A program made the position numbers and the translations under genes. A DNA stretch of 64,000 nucleotides, taken from assembly GCF_001486505.1 (NCBI RefSeq), contig NZ_LN909065.1, forward strand, positions 868,001 through 932,000, in the 5' to 3' direction. Source of the stretch: Paenibacillus rubinfantis. GTDB lineage: Bacteria; Bacillota; Bacilli; Paenibacillales; Paenibacillaceae. Position 1 is the first letter of the stretch. Each line of letters starts with the position of its first letter. The notes beneath the pieces were generated by a model, which did no database searches, was not told where the DNA came from, and saw nothing but the letters and a program-made list of their open reading frames with translations. Shown here piece by piece: positions 9,710-53,600 of this stretch.

Positions 9710-10131
9710 AGTGCTGAAAGTTTGCCGTAAGCCGGGTTCTGTACTCGTTGCGGTAGAACGGGAACTACCCTCCCGCCTTGAGCGACAATCATCTATCTAG
9801 GCCGCACATTACTGGGCGGCTCCAGCAACCAACCCGAACGCGCCTCGGGCAAAGGCCGCTTCGCGAAGAAGCTGCGTTCCATTAGGTCTTGCTCCAGGTG
9901 GGGTTTACCAGGAACGAAGTCACCAGCGTTCCTCGGGGTCTCTTACACCTCGGTTCCATCCTTGCCTGTGCACGCCTTGCGGCGGCCATCGGCGGTCCAT
10001 TTCTGTGGCACTATCCTTCAGCTCGCGCTGACTGGACGTTATCCAGCACCCTGCCCTATGGAGCCCGGACTTTCCTCCCGCGGCTCTTCAGCCGCCGGCG
10101 ATTGTCTGTCAAACTTTCGAAAGGCAACACT
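9710..10131 (-). ncRNA. rnpB: RNase P RNA (class A architecture)
   Basis: This is the catalytic RNA of RNase P, which removes 5' leaders from pre-tRNAs. On the minus strand the RNA carries the conserved GAGGAAAGTCCGGGCTCC and AGGGCAGGGTGC blocks, CCGCCGATGGCC, GGTAAACCCCACC and AGATAGATGATTG. It closes with ACAGAACCCGGCTTA. The ends pair (GAAAGTTTG near the 5' end with CAAACTTTC near the 3' end, plus AGTG/CACT), giving P1 and ends near 10131 and 9710. The CATAGGGCAGGGTGC-type core matches class A (E. coli-like) rather than the class B RNA of Bacillus. No alignment could be run. Confidence 0.95.
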
Positions 10132-12912: not shown

Positions 12913-13014
12913 CAGAACACCTTCTCCCAAGTGGTATGTACGATGTCAAGTTGTGCATGTTGTGCAGTGCAAGTTGTGCAGATTGCAGGTGCAGCCCGAC
13001 CTTCCGCGGCCCGC
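12913..13014. other. Intergenic stretch between the membrane gene and the four-unit element
   Basis: Together with the element at 13015-13198 and the rpoD terminator, this fills the 391-bp gap to rpoD. It contains short reiterations of GTTGTGCA (three within 12949-12980) and no reading frame with a ribosome site. A promoter for the membrane gene must lie in this gap, but I could not pick one out. Confidence 0.4.
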
Positions 13015-13198
13015 TAACGGACACCAGAGACGTTAATCGTCTGGCTCCTGAGTGGTTGCGCATTTTAACGGACTGAGGAGACCTTATTGGGGGATGAAGC
13101 GGTCAAAAAGCTAGCATCCGAGCCAAATAAGGCCTCTTGAGTCCGTTACAGCGGGAAATCGCCGGGAAATCCGCGAATAAGGTCTTTACGGTCCGTTA
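13015..13198. repeat. Four-unit palindromic intergenic element, family 1, copy 1
   Basis: Four 23-bp units start at 13015, 13066, 13126 and 13176 (spacing 51, 60, 50). The first two read TAACGGAC...GAGAC(G/C)TTA-type. The last two are the reverse complement, AATAAGG...GTCCGTTA. Arrows are therefore right, right, left, left. Each unit is itself an imperfect palindrome. The gaps contain GGGAAATCGCCGGGAAAT. A second copy with the same spacing is at 22778-22960. Degenerate GTCCGTTACG repeats follow to about 13245. Confidence 0.85.
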
Positions 13199-13251
13199 CG
13201 GTCCGTTACGGTCAGTTCCCGTCAGTTCCCGTCCGTTACCCGCCGTTCAAC

Positions 13252-22333: not shown

Positions 22334-22469
22334 AATAGAGTTCCTTTCGTCATGACCGGGTCAGTTCCTCTGACCGTTTCGTCGGTTGTTGTTGGTTCTG
22401 TTGCCCGTTTTGCTGGGAGGCTATACAAGGGTAACATGGGCTCGACCTCGGCGTTGCTCCATGTTGCAT

Positions 22470-22728
22470 CCGTTGGTTCGAGCGCCTTAAGTGGTTCTTT
22501 GCGCTTCCGTTCCGTTGGAGCTCGAGCGTCTCTGTGGCTCATTGCGCTAACGCTCCGTTGGCTCTTGAGCGTCTCTGTAGCTCATTGCGCTACCGCTCCG
22601 TTGGCTCTTGAGCGTCTCTGTGGCTCATTGCGCTACCGCTCCGTTGGCTCTTGAGCGTCTCAGTGGCTCATTGCGCTACCGCTCCGTTGGCTCTCGAGCG
22701 TCTCTGTGGCTCATTGCACCTCCGGTCC
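22470..22728. repeat. 43-bp tandem repeat array upstream of era
   Basis: Repeats beginning CCGTTGG start at 22512, 22555, 22598, 22641, 22684 and 22727, exactly 43 bp apart. A degenerate unit precedes them at 22470. The unit includes TTGGCTCTTGAGCGTCTCTG and TGGCTCATTGCGCTACCGC. The four central units differ by only a few bases. The period is not a multiple of three and no gene spans it. There are no spacers, so it is not CRISPR. Confidence 0.9.
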
Positions 22729-22777
22729 GTTGGCTCGAACCTCCGCTGATCCTTGCCGGTATCCCACAAACTATATC

Positions 22778-22960
22778 TAACGGACCGTAATGACCTTATT
22801 GGTCCATTTCCCGGCTATTTCCCGTTCTAACGGACTCCAGGTACCTTATTTCCACTTCACAGCAGCCATTTGTTGCTTTTCGTCCGAAATAACGTCTCCT
22901 GAGTCCGTTAGAATGCGCTCGCACTCCTATGCAGAACAATAACGTCTCTGGTGTCCGTTA
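22778..22960. repeat. Four-unit palindromic intergenic element, family 1, copy 2
   Basis: Four 23-bp units start at 22778, 22828, 22888 and 22938 (spacing 50, 60, 50). The first two begin TAACGGAC and end CCTTATT. The last two are inverted, beginning AATAACGTCTC and ending GTCCGTTA. The inner pair spans 83 bp, exactly as in the copy at 13015-13198. The first gap contains ATTTCCCGGCTATTTCCC, the complement of the motif in the last gap of copy 1. Confidence 0.88.
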
Positions 22961-22984
22961 GCACACGCTCTCTCGACCGAGTCC

Positions 22985-23302
22985 AAGATTCGTCGGAGCG
23001 GAGCGTACGTTTTGGGTACGTGAGCACCGGAAGGCCCGGCTGAATCCAAGATTCGACGTCGAATCCGCATCAGCGCCCCCACTTCGTGATCCAAGGCCGA
23101 CTTTTTGAACTACCGCTTCCAATAAAGGTTCAAAAAGGCGGGTTTGCAGCACCGAGAAGGTTGGATGAAGCTAGGGTCTGAGGAGCGGAGCGTACGTTTT
23201 GGGTACGTGAGCACCGGAAGGCCCGGCTGAATCCAAGATTCGACGTCGAATCCACATCAGTGCCCTCACTTCGTGATCCAAAGCCGCCTTTTTGAACTAC
23301 AG
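22985..23302 (+). repeat. Dispersed repeat (about 145 bp), two copies 187 bp apart
   Basis: The block GGAGCGGAGCGTACGTTTTG, then GGTACGTGAGCACCGGAAGG and CCAAGATTCGACGTCGAATC, occurs at about 22995-23110 and again from 23182. The second copy runs into the cdd stop region. Between them is AGCACCGAGAAGGTTGGATG. The same blocks occur on the opposite strand twice at 53312-53600. The 963-bp gap between era and cdd holds only this, the four-unit element and the tandem array; no gene is seen. Confidence 0.85.
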
Positions 23303-23707
23303 CTTCTCGTCCAGATTGGAGGGGGCGAAGGCGTAGGGAAGCAACTCCCGCACCGTCGTTTGGCGGATGTCGCCTTTGAGGTTGCCCAGGATCACGGGCA
23401 TGTCCGGACCGCACAGCTCCAGCAGCACCTGACGGCAAACGCCGCAGGGCGCAACCGGCTCCTCCGTATCGGCCACGACGGCGATCGCTTGAAAGCTCCC
23501 GGGCCGATGGCCGTCAGCGACCGCCCGAAACATTGCGGTACGTTCCGCGCAGTTCCCCGGGGTGTACGCCGCATTTTCCACGTTGCAGCCACGATGAACA
23601 TGGCCTTGGCTGTCGAGCAGCGCAGCGCCGACACCAAATTCCGAGTACGGAATATAAGCCGCTTTGCGGGCTTCGATGGCTTCTTGCATTAACTGTCCGT
23701 AATCCAT
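23297..23707 (-). CDS. cdd: Cytidine deaminase
   Basis: Converts cytidine and deoxycytidine to uridines in pyrimidine salvage. The 136-residue enzyme has the zinc site typical of the small homotetrameric form: GNCAERTAMFRA (Cys and catalytic Glu) and PCGVCRQVLLEL (two Cys). YIPYSEFGVGAALL near residues 18-31 forms the substrate pocket. AAGGAGATG precedes the start. The last codons and stop lie inside a dispersed repeat, so the C-terminal FAPSNLDEKL may be variable. Confidence 0.96.
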   Translation of the reverse strand: MDYGQLMQEAIEARKAAYIPYSEFGVGAALLDSQGHVHRGCNVENAAYTPGNCAERTAMFRAVADGHRPGSFQAIAVVADTEEPVAPCGVCRQVLLELCGPDMPVILGNLKGDIRQTTVRELLPYAFAPSNLDEKL

Positions 23708-34521: not shown

Positions 34522-34710
34522 AATAGAGTGATATTGTATCGCTATTCCTGCAAATCCAGGCTTTTTCGCCAAAATAGGATGATCAAATCACGTTATCCCC
34601 CTGAAAACAACCCGATCGGTCGATTTAGGTGGGGAATAAGACGATTTTATATCGCTATATTTGCTTAATCGCCAGAAATGCCCAAAATAAGAATATCAAA
34701 TCACTCTATC
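34522..34710. repeat. Four-unit palindromic intergenic element, family 2
   Basis: Four 25-bp units start at 34522, 34573, 34635 and 34686 (spacing 51, 62, 51). They follow the imperfect palindrome AATAGAGTGATA...TATCGCTATT; the second and fourth carry ATCAAATCAC. The unit sequence is unrelated to the 13-kb and 22.8-kb elements, but the number and spacing of units match. Gaps contain TTTTTCGCCAAAAT and TTAATCGCCAGAAAT, similar to the ATCGCCGGGAAAT of family 1. It lies 17 bp past the addA stop. Confidence 0.8.
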
Positions 34711-44467: not shown

Positions 44468-45490
44468 CTGTTTCAAGACATCTTGTTTCCGGTGACGTTT
44501 GGGTTCGCCCTGTTCCTGTTTGGCATGAAAGTGATGGAAGCTGCCCTGCACGCCTGGGCCGGCCCCAGGTTGATCGGCTTTCTTCACCAAACGACGCGGA
44601 CACCTTGGACCGGCCTGCTGTCGAGTACGCTGATCACGGCGGTCCTGCAGAGCAGCACGGCCGTGACGGTGATGACAATCGGTCTTGTGAATGCCCGCTT
44701 GTTGTCCTATGCGCGAACGCTGGGCATCATTTTGGGAGGCAATATCGGAACCTGCCTGACCACGGAGCTGCTTGCCCTTAATATAGCCAAGCTTGGGGTT
44801 CCCATGCTCATCGTTTCCATTGGGGGGTGGGCAGCTGCCGTACTTGGTGCCGAGATGCTCCCGGACTATATCAAACGCCGTATGTCTTGGCTGTTGCCTT
44901 TGCAGTTCGGCGCCTTAGCGTTAGCCGGCTTCAGCCTGGTCATGATCGCGATCCGCTTCATGCAGTCCATTGGTCCGGCGTTGGAGGAGCGCGGCGTGAT
45001 CTCCTGGCTGCTGCAGCATGCCACCGGCAGCTGGCTATGGGGCGCCTTCGCCGGCGCGATCCTGACGGCGATCATTCACAGCAGCGCCGCGGTTGTCGCC
45101 ATGACGATGGGCCTCGCCGCCAGCGGCGCCCTGCCGGTGGAATTCGGGATCGCCATGGTCATCGGCTCCAACGTCGGCACCTGCGTGACGGCAGTCATCG
45201 CCGCGATTGGCGGCACCCGGCCGGGCCGGTTCGTCGCCTGGTCGCACGTAACGCTTAACGTGCTGGGGGCGGCGTTGTTCCTGCCGTTGGTTCCGCTGCT
45301 GCAAGCGGCGGCCACCTGGTTGACCGGCGATCTCTCCGCGCAGATCGCCCATACACAAACGATTTTTAACGTCGTTTGCTCCTTGCTGGCGCTGCCGTTC
45401 TGCTATTTGCCGATCTGGTCCCGGCTGGATCGGTCCGGGGAGGATCATCTCGCCAGCCCGCTCCTTCCAAATCCGAAAGTACTAAAATAG
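44468..45490 (+). CDS. Na/Pi cotransporter family protein (YqeW/NptA-like)
   Basis: A polytopic membrane protein with two inverted Na/Pi-cotransporter repeats. The first has the QSST motif (AVLQSSTAVTVMTIG) and the second IIHSSAAVVAMTMG; GGNIGTCLTT and GSNVGTCVTA follow each. About eight helices are visible. B. subtilis yqeW lies in the same neighbourhood. The best ribosome site, GGAAAGGGGGG, is seven bases before a CTG at 44468 (then Phe-Gln-Asp-Ile-Leu-Phe), exactly where homologues start. Nearer ATG, GTG or TTG codons lack a site, so a CTG start is proposed with low confidence. The TAG stop lies inside a palindromic repeat unit. Confidence 0.85.
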   Translation: MFQDILFPVTFGFALFLFGMKVMEAALHAWAGPRLIGFLHQTTRTPWTGLLSSTLITAVLQSSTAVTVMTIGLVNARLLSYARTLGIILGGNIGTCLTTELLALNIAKLGVPMLIVSIGGWAAAVLGAEMLPDYIKRRMSWLLPLQFGALALAGFSLVMIAIRFMQSIGPALEERGVISWLLQHATGSWLWGAFAGAILTAIIHSSAAVVAMTMGLAASGALPVEFGIAMVIGSNVGTCVTAVIAAIGGTRPGRFVAWSHVTLNVLGAALFLPLVPLLQAAATWLTGDLSAQIAHTQTIFNVVCSLLALPFCYLPIWSRLDRSGEDHLASPLLPNPKVLK

Positions 45491-45671
45491 CTGCAGGAAT
45501 GCAGTTATTTTTATGACAAAGTAGCTATTTTTCCTAAATAGCTGCAAAAATGCAGTTATTTTCGCCGATATCCTCCGATTTCTCAAATACCGTAGAAAAT
45601 AACTGCACTCTTGCACTTATTTCAGACTATTGGGCGATTTCCGCAGAAATAACTGCATTTTAGCATCTATT
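45486..45671. repeat. Four-unit palindromic intergenic element, family 3
   Basis: Four 24-bp hairpin units start at 45486, 45537, 45598 and 45648 (spacing 51, 61, 50). The first two read AATAGCTGCA, four bases, TGCAGTTATT. The last two read AATAACTGCA, then a degenerate right half, so they are inverted relative to the first pair. The first unit supplies the TAG stop of the cotransporter gene. The element fills the gap to the convergent Nudix gene and may also act as terminator. Confidence 0.85.
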
Positions 45672-53311: not shown

Positions 53312-53600
53312 CTTTTCATCACGAAGCAAATCGAGAAGCTAACTCGACTTCGAATCTTGAATTCAGTTGGGCCTTCCGTTGCTCACGTACCCCTATGTAC
53401 GCTCCGCTACTCAGTCCCAACTTCATCCAACCTTCTCGGTGCTTAAAACCTGACTTCCCTTTTCATCTCGAAGCAAATCGAGAAGCTGACTCGACTTCGA
53501 ATCTTGAATTCAGTTGGGCCTTCCGTTGCTCACGTACCCCTATGTACGCTCCGCTACTCAGTCCCAACTTCATCCAACCTTCTCGGTGCTTAAAACCTAG
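53312..53600 (-). repeat. Dispersed repeat (147-bp tandem pair) in the dnaK-dnaJ gap
   Basis: Two near-identical direct copies, 147 bp apart, start at about 53312 and 53459. Each contains TCGACTTCGAATCTTGAATT, GGGCCTTCCGTTGCTCACGT, GTACGCTCCGCTACTCAG and CATCCAACCTTCTCGGTGCT. These are the reverse complements of the blocks at 22985-23302. The copies here differ at only a few positions. They fill most of the gap; no gene is present. Confidence 0.9.

Follow-up and report, generated by a model that had tools for sequence, protein, structure and literature searches.

We have analyzed a class of intergenic elements in Paenibacillus rubinfantis, four of which lie in the window (the whole 64,000-nucleotide stretch of DNA under study). 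The genome contains several hundred scattered elements of ~185 bp, each composed of four evenly phased palindromes and hereafter called tetrads. The tetrads very probably form a two-part system with a set of nuclease/winged-helix paralogs, in which they are the dispersed, non-coding component and each paralog is encoded beside its own element. The data support the geometry of the elements, their helical phasing, the linkage of gene and element, the assignment of one paralog to each family, the coevolution of the two, dispersal, and conservation at orthologous sites; from these we infer binding, cleavage and movement by the partner protein. Gene and element together look like an undescribed repeat-plus-enzyme system, similar to REP sequences but with a different enzyme and a different form of DNA. 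A search of the open-access literature found no published description of the element class; the first-pass annotation of this DNA had known of none.

Geometry and unit families

The 452 kb of the genome around and including the window were scanned, blind to unit sequence, for four 24-mers at offsets of 49-52/59-62/49-52 bp that are palindromic and alike when the last two units are reverse complemented (U1, U2, rc(U3), rc(U4)). With a peak cut-off score of at least 120, the scan returned 30 peaks at the ~50/61/50 spacing, compared with 0, 1 and 3 at three wrong geometries and none in the shuffled sequence. A chance origin of the class is excluded. The first-pass annotation had named shuffled DNA as the check on its spacing; the spacing claim stands, and its proposal that selection acts on architecture is likewise supported. 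It had recognized three unrelated unit families under this geometry, a number that the real scan peaks extend to at least seven. Applied more widely, the scan detects tetrads in further members of Paenibacillus, in additional genera and in a second family of the order. Repeat classes that are defined by geometry in this way escape motif finders that need sequence similarity.

BLAST with the element at 22777 finds about 50 places in its own genome, some of them tandem arrays, and a GTDB pattern search for its family, A, finds matches in many Paenibacillus, in Cohnella and in one Bacillus sp. The family-A collection comprises 138 elements at less than 80% mutual identity, and 107 of the 138 are exactly 185 bp long. 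Their units conserve TAACGGAC on the outside and AATARSG on the inside, with a profile that starts C/G-TAACGGA, and their linkers have diverged in sequence with constant length. Several families share a genome at very different copy numbers. At L118:2187-2850 and L093:15500-16200, near-perfect palindromes form long arrays that keep the ~51-bp and ~61-bp spacings (one such palindrome, from genome G059, is ATTTGTAGCGTTTCCGCTACAAAT); these arrays are apparently extended versions of the tetrad.

The four elements of the window

All four elements that had been reported, with starts at 13015, 22778, 34522 and 45486, are present, and none is assigned a strand. The spacings as first reported (51/60/50, 50/60/50, 51/62/51 and 51/61/50) differ from the re-measured values by at most 1-2 bp, and the reported inversion of the first pair relative to the last is confirmed, units 3-4 being the reverse complement of units 1-2. 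The family-A tetrad at 13014..13199 has units at 13014-13037, 13065-13088 (beginning TAACGGAC), 13126-13149 and 13176-13199 (ending GTCCGTTA), in inverted pairs spaced 51/61/50. The second family-A tetrad, at 22777..22961, was the subject of the earlier annotation; its units start at 22777/22827/22888/22938 (50/61/50) and its linker 1 contains ATTTCCCG-N3-ATTTCCC. The family-C tetrad at 34522..34710 has units at 34522/34573/34636/34687 (AATAGAGTGAT..ATCGCTATT) with spacings of 51/63/51, and the family-B tetrad at 45486..45671 has units at 45486/45537/45598/45648 (AATARSTGCA..TGCASTTATT), spaced 51/61/50, with a scan score of 191.

Each element was compared with the units that adjoin the seven partner paralogs of the genome, described below. 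The best-matching units were those of the A gene for the tetrads at 13014 (0.74, next 0.47) and 22777 (0.78, next 0.49), of the C gene for that at 34522 (0.59, next 0.42), and of the B gene for that at 45486 (0.72, followed by D at 0.59). Taken alone, the tetrad at 34522 is weak, its scan score of ~116 being within the control range; it is supported by an intact ortholog in genome G020 and by its match to the units beside the family-C gene.

A partner gene linked to the elements

Clustering of the ORFs that neighbour the elements gave mostly large common families or syntenic orthologs, and one cluster of an uncommon protein, the partner protein. This protein of ~216-220 amino acids is encoded 0-181 bp from family-A elements in several unrelated neighbourhoods. 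P. rubinfantis has seven paralogs, and no two adjoin the same unit family: the A gene is flanked by its tetrads on both sides, and the remaining six lie next to families C, D, a TTAACRGTAGG family, G, F and B. The genes lie outside the window and are absent from the first-pass annotation. The family-B gene of P. rubinfantis is divided between two frames (G000:C18:684003-684619; L262 and L263); intact relatives exist, one of them, with family-B units alongside, in G022 (L278).

Of the genomes surveyed, 31 of 40 in the genus and 108 of 151 in the order encode the partner protein, some with as many as 19 copies. In the sampled rest of the phylum it is almost absent, the exception being one full-length relative in a distant Bacillota genome (L391), where a tetrad again lies downstream; no relative turned up in a protein scan of viral contigs. 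Genomes G018 and G019 have neither the protein nor, in the 80 kb scanned in each, the elements. There are 10 paralogs in G051 yet no element above background in 80 kb, and 4 paralogs in G084 yet no element in 40 kb; element copy number thus does not follow gene number.

A tetrad lies no more than 600 bp from the gene at 34 of 40 loci examined with 17 kb of surrounding sequence; from the 16 tetrads found in 427 kb of distal sequence, about 3 such loci would be expected. The element is downstream of the gene in 56 of 66 pairs, at a median distance near 55 bp; at the threshold used, 17 of 83 genes have no element within 600 bp. Some 10 species share flanking genes on both sides of the gene loci while the adjacent units drift, which indicates that the partner gene is inherited vertically. 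Unit sequence coevolves with the partner protein. Proteins of higher mutual identity have more similar units (49 non-redundant pairs; Mantel test, Spearman rho 0.60; reached in 0 of 1000 permutations, null maximum 0.32), and the association is greater with the winged helix than with the nuclease part (partial correlations of 0.37 and 0.10, with the other domain held constant). The units had been suggested to change together, and coevolution with the cognate paralog explains this.

Fold and motif of the partner protein

The protein consists of an N-terminal PD-(D/E)XK domain, DUF559/Vsr-like, and a C-terminal winged helix. The AlphaFold model, based on six sequences, has a mean pLDDT of 77 and predicts an a-b-b-b-a-b core followed by the winged helix; its confidence is low in the nuclease core (pLDDT 52-74). 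The predicted winged helix has structural matches to the Z-alpha, MarR and ArsR folds, with Z of ~11. DUF559 (PF04480) matches 14 of 24 members at E <0.01, mostly near or below the curated cut-off; some of the matches in a scan of six paralogs exceed it. Residues D70, E85 and H92 (L256 numbering) are invariant in all 24 members; the third motif residue, the K of ExK, is replaced by Q, D or M in a part of the paralogs. Judged by these motifs, the protein likely has nuclease activity. A PDB profile search and a fold search, in neither of which the nuclease domain was the sole query, returned the winged helix only and so say little about a PDB match for that domain; searches of PADLOC, PHROGs and NCBIfam yielded nothing beyond weak matches, either unnamed or of winged-helix type. 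The nuclease domain also matches part of ~750-amino acid proteins in other Bacillota (L392, L393, L394, L395 and L399), two of which (L392 and L394) have helicase-like sequence after the match.

Probably wrapped DNA rather than RNA

The A/T content of the linkers of 107 family-A elements has a period of 10.15 bp (R2 0.72, compared with a maximum of 0.27 in 500 shuffles), and the same A/T peaks, at 0, ~9-10 and ~18 bp from the centre, are seen in 103 elements of other families. The phasing of a single element is modest (19 of 107 exceed the 95% level of their own shuffles), and the phase is common across elements, with a resultant of 0.89. This shared phasing lends support to the earlier suggestion of proteins on a phased array. 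The Watson-Crick fraction of mirrored positions in 428 family-A units is that expected under independence, and a scan against Rfam gave no match to the elements. Mirrored pairing at expectation, together with phased linkers, argues for DNA bent around protein and not for RNA hairpins, and points to elements that act as wrapped double-stranded DNA. The four-hairpin RNA that had been offered as the other possibility finds no covariation behind it, and a 10.15-bp linker period is unneeded by an RNA. That the tetrads should be a structured RNA of four hairpins, or else cruciform DNA, might be read from their imperfect palindromes, which become nearly perfect in family I and in the G059 array; pairing at the expected level, helically phased linkers, no match in Rfam and no strand preference relative to genes leave this reading hardly credible.

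Genomic context, conservation and dispersal

The elements are intergenic and show no strong preference for gene orientation. Of 111 placed elements, 55 lie in tandem, 39 in convergent and 17 in divergent contexts, compared with 191, 100 and 74 in the background; a terminator or promoter role was rejected, as this mix is near background. Four other species have the element at 22777 in the orthologous gap, with zero linker indels and a strongly diverged central linker; in two of them, essentially all four units carry GGAA instead of GGAC. The element at 45486 is intact in G010, G013, G020 and G022 and is reduced to the inner units 2 and 3 in G035 and G007, whose orthologs of 45486-45671 lack exactly one outer unit on each side; this suggests that a doublet form of the element can exist. 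The element at 34522 is intact in G020, internally deleted in G013 and missing in G035 and G007.

Family I is present in P. oralis (G006) in at least 40 copies across the chromosome that are 79-88% identical. Homology stops at the outer palindromes in most copies, and some copies share longer flanks. Among 30 family-I copies no target-site duplication is obvious, the palindromic ends being hard to define to the base, and a clean empty site with target duplication, sought at the B and C elements of the window, was not found. Some families have thus dispersed recently and others are conserved at orthologous sites without indels, and the mobile origin that had been proposed for a common ancestor is supported. 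P. oralis also carries a ~390-bp MITE-like element (L084:1995-2385 and L087:3068-3456) with inverted termini (CTAGTAGA.. / ..TCTACTAG) and two copies that are 92% identical; it encloses a complete four-unit tetrad of another family.

Comparison with known systems

In REPIN-RAYT systems, hundreds of short intergenic palindromic repeats per genome accompany a single-copy, vertically inherited enzyme gene that lies beside its own repeat family, with several such pairs per genome, coevolution and tandem clusters (PMC3116915, PMC8266576). The tetrad families likewise adjoin their vertically inherited gene, by analogy and not by homology. The cognate protein here is a DUF559-like nuclease with a winged helix, whereas RAYT is an HUH/Y1 transposase (PF01797); no Y1 match was found among the cognate proteins, which match DUF559 and winged-helix models instead. 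A link to RAYT through the genome's own Y1_Tnp genes was rejected, these being four identical IS200-type copies of which only one is near a tetrad. The tetrads differ further in the fixed helical spacing of their units and in having no GTAG-type 5' tag (none is common to the other unit families listed). In place of single-stranded DNA hairpins they appear to use wrapped double-stranded DNA, the 428 family-A units being without hairpin covariation. The system works like REPIN-RAYT yet differs from that family in enzyme, DNA form and tag.

BIMEs, the mosaics of REP sequences that bind IHF or gyrase, resemble the tetrads as intergenic, regularly spaced palindromes that are likely protein-bound. 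BIME units, however, alternate in orientation and vary in number, whereas the tetrads have four units, direct within pairs and inverted between pairs, and many families, each with its own gene. MITEs are similarly small, non-coding, terminally symmetric and dispersed; the tetrads differ from them in their internal, helically phased sites under purifying selection, in a cognate gene that is nuclease-like and not a transposase (the search of the genome for transposases behind this comparison covered Y1_Tnp only), and perhaps in target-site duplication, none being obvious in the 30 family-I copies with their palindromic ends. The partner protein shares with DUF559 (PF04480), MTES_1575 and Vsr-like PD-(D/E)XK proteins the invariant D..E..H motif and the predicted a-b-b-b-a-b core, and is distinguished by its fusion to a winged helix and its link to a repeat family; no repeat-linked role for DUF559-type nucleases was found in the open-access literature. 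Octamers of Lrp/LrpC and RemA wrap 100-200 bp with sites on one face (PMC8481266). Their likeness to the complex proposed below is one of working principle only, as the proteins are unrelated and their sites are short or poorly conserved with no fixed tetrad. LrpC and RemA had been candidates, taken from the literature, and were dropped after the linked gene was found.

Proposed system and alternatives

From the anatomy of the element, each imperfect palindrome would be bound by a dimer of the partner protein, with the winged helix making the contact. With 5, 6 and 5 helical turns between the sites, and the A/T minor grooves in phase, four dimers, as an octamer or two tetramers, could wrap ~185 bp into one nucleoprotein complex. 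Unit sequence would drift with the winged helix while the protein assembly fixes the geometry. The nuclease may act on DNA in the complex, leading to an occasional move or copy to other intergenic sites, where the element is then maintained; this last step is suggested by the dispersal of the elements and by the analogy to RAYT.

The same observations can be arranged otherwise. The tetrads may be operators or nucleoid sites of domesticated winged-helix proteins that wrap DNA for organisation or regulation, with a nuclease fold that is structural and a mobility that is incidental, the product of old duplications and recombination. Such a role fits the purifying selection seen at orthologous sites on both units and spacing, the vertical inheritance of the gene in conserved neighbourhoods, the phased curved DNA and the unconserved K of ExK; it sits badly with nuclease-motif D, E and H that are invariant in 24 members, with several families per genome at very different copy numbers and with the recent family-I burst, and the near-background share of elements between convergent genes is a poor fit to a transcription regulon. 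We consider it possible but doubtful. Permanent linkage of a nuclease-like gene to its own binding-site-like element, and the many sites of some genomes, would also be expected of a selfish addiction or titration system in which the elements are decoys that absorb the nuclease and their loss leads to cutting of the cell; genomes with many paralogs and apparently few elements, such as G051, speak against this, and we think it unlikely. As for ordinary MITEs of an IS, dead ends moved by a conventional transposase with the nuclease gene as a chance passenger, they too are terminally symmetric, dispersed and non-coding, and one tetrad does lie within the MITE-like element of P. oralis. A linkage in 34 of 40 loci that is family-specific and coevolving, with one paralog per family, contradicts a chance passenger, and neither the 30 family-I copies, in which no target-site duplication was seen, nor the four identical Y1 transposases, with a tetrad near only one, favour such an origin, which is very improbable.

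We lean, with some reserve, towards the fuller reading of the two-part system as a new class of prokaryotic repeat plus enzyme, in which diversifying nuclease/winged-helix paralogs would each wrap a private family of four-site elements as octamers into nucleosome-like particles and spread them through the genome, specificity evolving freely under a geometry imposed by the protein. If true, this would be a second, independently evolved solution to the task of REPIN-RAYT, using an unrelated nuclease and double-stranded wrapped DNA. The dozens of natural protein/site pairs, with specificity varied under constant geometry, offer a test bed for winged-helix recognition and for the question of what makes bacteria retain such repeats together with their enzymes.

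Other features of the window

A 43-bp tandem repeat in six copies (GTTGGCTCTTGAGCGTCTCTGTGGCTCATTGCGCTACCGCTCC type; 22448-22779) abuts the left edge of the element at 22777. A second, unrelated dispersed intergenic repeat (GGGTACGTGAGCACCGGAAGGCCCGGCTGAATCCAAGATTCGA..) is present at 22995-23306 and 53312-53598 as tandem pairs of 187 and 147 bp, and adjoins tetrads in relatives as well (L056 and L057). The window also contains a bacterial RNase P RNA of class A at 9713-10117 on the minus strand.
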